Shown piece after piece: positions 1 through 50,670 of a stretch of DNA of 50,670 nt. The position numbers and the translations under genes are program-made. The stretch is from Halalkalibacter oceani (GTDB taxonomy: Bacteria > Bacillota > Bacilli > Bacillales > Bacillaceae_D), in NCBI RefSeq assembly GCF_023715605.1, contig NZ_JAMBOL010000021.1, positions 1 to 50,670 of the forward strand, written 5' to 3'. The notes beneath the pieces are model-generated. The model was not told where the DNA came from, did not search any database, and saw only the letters and a program-made list of their open reading frames with translations. The first letter of the stretch is position 1. The number at the start of each line of letters is the position of its first letter.

Positions 1-172
1 TGTGGACGGGATAAGTGCTGAAAGCATCTAAGCATGAAGCCCCCCTCAAGATGAGATTTCCCATGGAGTTAATCCAGTAAGACCCCTTAGAGATGATGAG
101 GTTGATAGGTCTGGTGTGGAAGCGTGGTGACACGTGGAGCTGACAGATACTAATCGGTCGAGGACTTATCCA
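1..172 (+). rRNA. rrl: 23S rRNA, 3' end (partial)
   Basis: The first about 172 bases match the conserved 3' end of Bacillus 23S rRNA: the helix region with AGCATGAAGCCCCCCTCAAG, the AAGCGTGGTGACACGTGGAG segment, and the terminal AATACTAAT-like and CGAGGACTT motifs. The 5' part lies outside the window. The exact mature 3' end is an estimate placed just after the AGGACTTATCC segment. In B. subtilis this position is the rrnA operon, followed by csfB, which agrees with the downstream order here. Confidence 0.96.
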
Positions 173-400
173 AGCCATTCTTGATACTTGCATAATCATG
201 ATCTAGTTTTGAAAGAATCAAGTCCATGTCCCTGCCTTTTCGGGACATGGACGCAGCAATGTGCGGAGTCGCTACAAGTTTTTCAAAGTCTAGAGAGGAG
301 TGGGGTTCTCCACTCTAGACGAGTAGCGTACGGAGCCATTGCGACTTCCCCGATATAGATTGATCAAAGAGAACCTGACAAGGTAATCTCTCGATCAAAA
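173..400 (+). other. 23S-5S spacer with three stem-loops
   Basis: The spacer is almost entirely foldable. A perfect 11-bp stem lies at 222-232/242-252. A stem with arms 288-295 and 313-320 is enclosed by short complements near 270-275/323-328 and GCAATG/CATTGC. A third hairpin (360-365 with 393-398, extended by AGAGA/TCTCT) ends two bases before 5S. None is followed by a T run, so they look like precursor-processing structures and not terminators. No tRNA gene is present in the spacer. Confidence 0.7.
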
Positions 401-517
401 GTCCGGTGGCGATAGCGAAGAGGTCACACCCGTTCCCATGCCGAACACGGTCGTTAAGCTCTTCAGCGCCAATGGTAGTTGGAGGCTTCCTCCTGCAAGA
501 GTAGGACGTTGCCGGGC
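401..517 (+). rRNA. rrf: 5S rRNA
   Basis: About 117 bases match Bacillus 5S rRNA: GGTGGCGATAGCGAAGAGGT at the 5' end, the CACACCCGTTCCCATGCCGA core, GTTAAGCTCTTCAGCGCC, and GAGAGTAGGACG-like 3' sequence. The ends pair (CCGG-TGGC with GTTGCCGGG). Ends are set by this terminal helix and may be off by one or two bases. RNase M5, which matures this RNA, is encoded in the same window (rnmV). Confidence 0.96.
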
Positions 518-48484: not shown

Positions 48485-50494
48485 ATGAATCGTATATTTC
48501 GTAACACCATTTTTTATTTACTTATCTTTCTCGTTATCGTCGGGATCGTAAATGTATTTAGTTCTGATCAGACAGATACAGAAAAGGTTACGTTTACAAC
48601 ATTCACAGAGAGACTCGAACAGGGTGAGGTGCGTGACCTTGAAGTGAAGCCTGTTCGTCAGGTATACCTTGTACGTGGTCAATTTACGGATCATGGTGAA
48701 GGAGAGTTCTTTGAGACGTATGCCTTGCAAAGCGAGCAAACGGCCGAGCTGCTGATGAATGCCCAGTCAGCTACGGGCGGTACGTTTGAATTAGATTTCC
48801 AGCCGGCGGATGAAACGAGCGGTTGGGTGACCTTTTTTACAGGGATCATTCCGTTTATCATTATTTTCATTCTCTTTTTCTTCTTACTAAGCCAGGCTCA
48901 AGGTGGCGGCAGCCGCGTCATGAACTTCGGTAAGAGTAAGGCGAAAATCGTTAGTGATGATAAGAAAAAAGCGAAGTTCAAGGATGTGGCCGGTGCCGAT
49001 GAAGAGAAACAGGAGCTTATCGAAGTTGTTGAATTTCTAAAAGATCCGCGCAAATTCTCGGCCATCGGCGCACGGATTCCAAAAGGTGTCCTGCTCGTGG
49101 GGCCTCCAGGAACGGGGAAAACGTTGCTGGCGCGTGCTGTTGCAGGCGAAGCGGGTGTACCGTTCTTCTCGATCAGTGGTTCTGACTTTGTTGAGATGTT
49201 TGTCGGGGTCGGGGCATCCCGTGTCCGTGATTTGTTCGAGAATGCGAAAAAGAATGCGCCATGTATTATCTTTATCGATGAGATCGACGCTGTTGGACGT
49301 CAGCGTGGTGCTGGTCTCGGCGGGGGACACGATGAGCGTGAGCAGACGTTGAACCAGCTGCTTGTTGAAATGGACGGTTTCAGCGCCAATGAAGGAATCA
49401 TCATTATTGCCGCGACGAACCGTGCTGATATCCTTGATCCTGCCTTGTTGCGTCCAGGCCGTTTTGACCGTCAAATTATGGTCAACCGTCCTGATGTTGT
49501 CGGCCGTGAAGCGGTGCTTAAAGTTCACGCCCGCAATAAGCCGTTGAATGATGATGTTAATTTGAATGCGATTGCTGCTCGGACACCGGGCTTTTCTGGT
49601 GCCGATCTTGAAAACCTTCTGAATGAAGCGGCTTTAATTGCTGCCCGAAACGATCAGACGAAAATCAGCATGATCCATGTCGAAGAAGCGATTGACCGGG
49701 TCATTGCCGGGCCGGCGAAAAAGAGCCGTGTCATCTCGAAAAAGGAAAAGAATATCGTCGCGTGGCATGAAGCGGGTCATACCGTTGTCGGTGTGAAGCT
49801 TGAAAATGCCGATATGGTTCATAAGGTAACGATCGTTCCGCGGGGAATGGCGGGAGGCTATGCTGTTATGCTGCCGAAGGAAGACCGCTATTTCATGACA
49901 AAGCCGGAGCTGCTTGATAAGATTGTCGGGTTGCTTGGAGGCCGGGTGGCCGAGGAAGTTCAGTTTGGCGAGGTTAGTACCGGCGCGCATAACGACTTCC
50001 AGCGTGCGACCGCGATTGCCCGGAAAATGGTAACTGAGTACGGGATGAGTGAGAAGATTGGTCCAATGCAATTCGGTTCCAATTCTGGCGGACAGGTATT
50101 TTTAGGCCGGGATATCCAGAATGAACAGAATTACAGTGATGCGATTGCTCATGAAATTGACATGGAAACACAGCGTATTATTAAAGAGTGTTATGAACGC
50201 TGCCGGGAAATCCTTGTCGAGAACAAAGCGAGCCTCGATCTTGTTGCTGAAACATTGCTTGAGCTTGAGACGCTTGATGCCGAGCAAATTAAATCACTCA
50301 TCAACGAAGGCAAGCTGCCTGAGAATCATCACACGAACAAAAAGCCTTCTGAAGATAGTGATGTGAAGGTGAATATCCATTCAAAAAAGGATGACGAGAT
50401 GCGCAAGAGCGAGGATGAGTCTGAGCCAACCGCTGAAGATGCAGTCGAAACGTCTCCTGATGAAGAAGTGCCACCAAAAAAAGAAGATAATTAA
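48485..50494 (+). CDS. ftsH: ATP-dependent zinc metalloprotease FtsH
   Basis: A 669-residue membrane AAA protease. TM1 is at about 6-26 and TM2 at about 117-138, enclosing an extracellular domain. The AAA module has Walker A GPPGTGKT (206-213), Walker [12 protein letters not shown] and the SRH near [11 protein letters not shown]. The protease domain has the zinc site HEAGH (428-432). The C-terminus is acidic and low-complexity. GGAGGAGGT precedes the ATG. It degrades membrane and regulatory proteins and is required for sporulation initiation in B. subtilis. Confidence 0.98.
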
Positions 50495-50508: not shown

Positions 50509-50549
50509 GCGGGTGGGAAGCGACGACTTGGTTCGCTTCCCGCTTTTTT
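50509..50549 (+). terminator. Terminator of ftsH
   Basis: GGGAAGCG (50515-50522) pairs with CGCTTCCC (50534-50541), extended by outer GC pairs, and six T follow (50544-50549). It ends one base before the group II intron. Confidence 0.92.
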
Positions 50550-50550
50550 G

Positions 50551-50670
50551 GTGTGCCCGGCATGTGCATGGGCTATAGGGTTCAAGTCCCGAGCAGTGAA
50601 GGTCACTGTAACTGTTAGCCAACGACAAGGGTGTCTAGGGTGACCTAGAATCTGAAGGAAGTCCGAGGCA
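50551..50670 (+). mobile_element. Group IIC intron, 5' end (truncated by window edge)
   Basis: The sequence starts with the 5' splice-site consensus GTGTGCCCGGCATG and continues with CTATAGGG, AGTCCCGA, GTGAAGG, GTTAGCC, CAAGGGTGTC and AGAATCTGAAGGAAG, in the order and spacing of domain I of bacterial class C group II introns such as the Oceanobacillus iheyensis intron. It begins immediately 3' of a terminator hairpin plus T tract, which is the preferred insertion site of class C introns. The reverse transcriptase ORF and domains II-VI lie beyond the window. Orientation is the same as ftsH. Confidence 0.88.

Follow-up and report, generated by a model that had tools for sequence, protein, structure and literature searches.

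The window (the whole stretch of 50,670 nucleotides analysed, which is the entire contig C38 of an assembly of 4,474,054 bases in 124 contigs) ends in a mobile class C group II intron that almost certainly entered the DNA immediately behind the ftsH terminator by retrotransposition. An intron of this class, directly behind the rho-independent terminator of ftsH, had been claimed by a sequence-only reading of the window, and the hairpin, the T tract, the GTGTG start and the Rfam matches uphold it. The direct support consists of group IIC identity at both ends of the element, targets made of a hairpin plus a T tract, one exact insertion, occurrence in nine places of the genome and continuation of the ftsH copy to coaX on another contig.

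The ftsH terminator and the intron 5′ end

The hairpin downstream of ftsH has a z-score of −4.2, and none of 200 shuffled sequences was equally stable. It is followed by GC, a run of six T (50544–50549) and a G at position 50550. The base upstream of the intron, previously taken as the end of the T tract, is this G, part of a TTG common to all nine copies in the genome. A simple terminator scan of the window did not list the ftsH hairpin and found three other sites, with 3.1 expected; the 9-base loop, which exceeds the scan maximum of 8, is probably the cause.

The intron shows the GUGYG hallmark of group IIC 5′ ends and a domain I core, and the four domain I sequence blocks quoted in the sequence-only reading are all present. 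A covariance-model match had been proposed as the check on the start at 50551. Such a match exists, but it is partial: the Rfam model group-II-D1D4-3 (RF02001) aligned to 50634–50670 with its positions 1–37 of 170, where the window end stops it, and scored 31.9 bits, 0.1 bit short of the gathering score of 32 (E 0.00045). Because of this 0.1 bit the match was absent from the gathering-level scan of the whole window. When the 120 nt were folded alone their stability was not unusual (z −0.7), as expected since the domain is incomplete. The first 23 nt of the intron, used as an exact pattern, gave no matches in genome_contigs, and a 22-nt pattern gave none in viral_contigs.

On its left side the window (1–517) opens within the 3′-terminal part of a 23S rRNA gene, after which comes 5S rRNA, so the contig stops in a known repeat there too.

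Features at the right end of the window
Feature	Position	Strand	Evidence or remark
ftsH (ATP-dependent zinc metalloprotease), whose terminator is the intron target	48485..50494	+	TIGR01241, 878 bits (cut-off 600)
Rho-independent terminator stem-loop of ftsH, read as the hairpin part of the intron DNA target	50515..50541	+	−17.3 kcal/mol
T tract and final G	50544..50550	+	TTG at 50548–50550, closing 9/9 5′ exons of the genome
Group IIC intron 5′ end (first 120 nt, domain I), running on past the contig end	50551..50670	+	GTGTG start, reading GTGTGCCCGG; RF02001 match

Copies in the genome and continuation of the intron

The intron 5′ end was found in nine places in the genome, with 119–120 of its 120 nt on each contig, always a few bases from a contig end and each time behind a different hairpin and T tract, so its position behind ftsH is not due to chance. 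A comparison of copies for a common terminator target had been proposed as a check: all nine lie directly behind rho-independent terminators, and their 5′ exons all end in TTG. Eight of the nine hairpins were matched in stability by at most 2 of 500 shuffles; the weak one, at the right end of C22, was matched by 24 of 500.

The nine contigs with a 5′ end and the eight with a 3′ end each have a longest match to a sister copy of exactly 127 bases, and two of these 17 contigs extend one base further. Sharing of 127 bases is a sign of de Bruijn assembly with k = 127, broken in a repeat. The window stops inside the intron because the assembly broke in the repeated copies; this break is an artefact, while the insertion itself is not. 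The same repeat explains sixteen other contig ends of the assembly.

Domains V and VI, the first of which had been named as a check on the intron, were found where the partner contig C70 begins (L050, 56–126; RF00029, 47.0 bits against a gathering score of 40). Over the whole genome, with 150 of 302 candidates scored, RF00029 yielded at least 11 matches located at contig ends, eight belonging to this intron type and three to a second type. A DNA search for 3′ ends recovered these eight and brought the number for the second type to four. On C70 the intron 3′ end is followed by coaX (type III pantothenate kinase) and then by an ORF that we take to be hslO-like. Ahead of domain V stand 16 codons that close with a stop (QGLKSVLERYETLRQT) and are similar to the ends of the maturases encoded by two related introns, L056 and L057; the Cytobacillus maturase, whose intron is compared below, has a C-terminus of this kind. 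The ftsH copy carries on at C70 with the tail of a maturase gene, domains V and VI, and coaX. The first base of the 3′ exon is T in 8/8 copies, assuming that the intron ends in CGAT. In the single-contig genome G012, coaX (C1:87626-88386) was matched in two overlapping pieces, reflecting either a frameshift or a sequencing error.

The second type, also a group IIC intron, has 5′ ends on contigs C35, C43, C57 and C67 and 3′ ends on C28, C54, C66 and C74; its exons end in TTA, and it is likewise broken by the assembly. When RF02001 was searched across the genome and 150 of 183 candidates were scored, the matches listed included only this second type, on C35.

Empty sites and exon–loop pairing

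In the close relative G007, ftsH and coaX adjoin and the same ftsH hairpin is present without interruption. A search of G007 with flank anchors placed eight other 5′ flanks and seven other 3′ flanks. Seven further pairs of 5′ and 3′ contigs lie together there with their order kept, which with ftsH makes eight paired sites. C42 is the only 5′ end without a 3′ partner: G007 reads on without an intron at its 5′ side, and the G007 stretch downstream of the site was searched for in this genome and not found.

Six G007 sites align across the junction without an intron (ftsH, C74/C73, C54/C37, C48/C49, C80/C22 and C50/C33). At C74/C73 the empty site agrees with the joined flanks in every one of the 145 columns shown, with the intron end at CGAT and the exon start at T, so insertion there was exact, with neither duplication nor loss. 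The flanks differ from G007 at the other five, and at ftsH these differences leave an ambiguity of one base. At C30/C91 and C22/C43, G007 matches both sides but not across the junction, with about 150 and about 600 other bases in between. The insertion point could be read in G007 at seven sites. It is TTG in four (C74, C54, C48 and C42) and another triplet in three: TTT at ftsH, where TTG follows one or two bases further on, TAT at C80 and CTG at C50. The intron 5′ end had one match in G007, at 78% identity, which points to a probable spread of this intron type after the split of the two lineages.

Recognition of the exon was assessed in related introns by checking whether the exon end can pair with a variable domain I loop, with at least three pairs required and G-U allowed. 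Out of 89 intron starts, 12 had no usable upstream sequence and one was a duplicate, leaving 76 junctions; one of these (L011) represents the genome's own second type, and sister copies are numerous, 21 having the same loop. The last three exon bases pair with the loop in 75 of the 76 (64 by Watson-Crick pairs alone). A shift of the loop left 5 of the 76 paired at one base, 1 at two bases and 22 at three. Since many junctions are sister copies, the 22 loop types are the better count: with one junction per loop type all 22 pair, where shuffles gave 2.9 on average and 9 at most. The second intron type of this genome obeys the rule as well: its exons end in TTA in 4/4 copies, and the only copy extending as far as the loop has TAAACA. 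From the junctions emerges a clean three-base rule of exon recognition for this IIC branch, by which the loop can be predicted from the targets.

From the exon TTG and this rule, the loop of the ftsH intron, which lies in the part missing from the assembly, is predicted to be CAA. In line with IIC anatomy we take the variable loop to be EBS1 and the exon end to be IBS1, and TTG at 50548–50550 is then likely IBS1. By analogy with the family, the intron RNA and its reverse transcriptase/maturase would recognise the terminator hairpin plus a three-base match, here between TTG in the exon and the predicted CAA loop. The RNA would reverse-splice into the strand behind the hairpin and be copied to DNA, and once inserted it would be transcribed rarely, through read-through of the terminator. 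The copies would stem from the recent spread of one element. A low cost of the insertion, harmless to ftsH, would fit the intact hairpin and T tract.

Interior of the intron and comparison with known introns

The interior of the intron, from the rest of domain I to domain IV, was not found in the assembly, which does retain contigs as short as 240 bases. A search for it in 59 stretches from 53 of the 124 contigs (C102, C113 and C124 in part, C115 over 300 of its 331 bases) gave no blastn or tblastn match. No RVT_1 match was obtained in the genome at E ≤ 0.001, and the Cytobacillus maturase gave one match at chance level (E 0.12). The dropping of repeat contigs from the assembly as a class was considered; the large contig C102 does carry 16S rRNA, which does not settle this. 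In relatives of the intron the D1-D4 interior is present. The two nearest by their 5′ end, L056 and L057, carry maturase genes, that of L057 being apparently short at its start.

The lack of a reverse transcriptase match in the assembly would also agree with copies that are ORF-less IIC derivatives about 0.6 kb long, whose movement and splicing would depend in trans on the maturase of another intron, for instance the second type on C35. Short forms of this kind exist among the relatives: L060/L023 (genome G045) and L024 (genome G055) are IIC introns of 642–644 nt that match both D1-D4 and D5-D6, and within its short-intron span L060 contains no ORF longer than 77 aa. A short maturase-like tail is retained in L060 as well; a tail by itself is thus no proof of a whole gene. 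However, the interiors of both intron types are missing from the assembly, which makes the absence of a maturase uninformative for either, and the relatives nearest by 5′ end carry the gene. The 3′ end here also encodes a longer maturase tail, with a stop codon, than L060, and this tail before domain V lowers the odds of an ORF-less element. Small ORF-less derivatives are thus improbable. Slightly more doubtful still is the wider version, in which all nine copies lack the ORF, depend on the maturase of another intron or have none surviving, and represent a burst of a non-autonomous IIC intron over terminators. Of the two kinds of element, the ORF-less one is less likely than the maturase-bearing one.

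L023 and L024, which come from different bacterial families, differ in their 5′ parts but are identical over 156 consecutive bases at the 3′ end. G045 contains at least 14 intron matches (14 of 55 first-look candidates scored).

The window itself holds only the first 120 nt, as would a truncated fragment that was dead on arrival. This is very improbable, as the 127 bases that each of the 17 contigs shares with a sister show the truncation to be the assembler's, domain V-VI 3′ ends stand on eight contig ends, and eight pairs are backed by synteny. An unrelated repeat, such as an insertion sequence or interspersed repeat that sits behind terminators by accident, would likewise be repeated and lie at contig ends, but is hardly conceivable given the Rfam group II matches at both ends, the GTGTG start and the absence of a target duplication at the one exact empty site (C74/C73), and is already contradicted by domain V and the homology to an annotated intron bearing ltrA. 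A mobile IIC intron is the reading retained.

That annotated intron was the best of 94 plasmid records matching the 162-base query at E ≤ 1e-5. It is a IIC intron on the Cytobacillus spongiae plasmid NZ_CP089998.1 (ltrA WP_233811949.1). Its 5′ end is 86% identical over 111 of the 120 nt, its 3′ end 89% over 106 nt. It too lies behind a hairpin with a T tract, and it ends in CTACTCGAT followed by T. It differs in its 5′ exon, which ends in TTT instead of TTG, and in that its maturase gene is visible. An intron of the same family on contig C77 of genome G014 is 84% identical over the 5′ end and 95% over 84 nt at the 3′ end, and its 5′ exon ends in TAG. It contains a reverse transcriptase ORF of 339 aa (TIGR04416, 326 bits) that matches the profile only from position 73, so that the gene looks short at its start.

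A search of genome_contigs with the Cytobacillus maturase returned 426 stretches that encode relatives, 80 of which were kept; 23 of these 80 come from the genome of Bacillus massiliglaciei. In this species (L170, L182) a single locus holds two intron starts separated by about 1.9 kb, the second preceded by a run of N; they are either tandem introns or a scaffolding artefact.

Passages in the literature describe class C group II introns as inserting directly after rho-independent terminators, using EBS1 and EBS3 only, and being numerous in Firmicutes (PMC8919778, PMC4424553, PMC3522654). The terminator insertion, the abundance in Firmicutes and a small expected effect on the host are, as far as these passages go, already in print (same sources and PMC7161350). 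Set against bacterial class C introns as so described, the ftsH intron showed no departing feature. Its importance beyond annotation is small, as one more copy of a retroelement common in Firmicutes: the intron behind ftsH is an ordinary further copy of a known kind.
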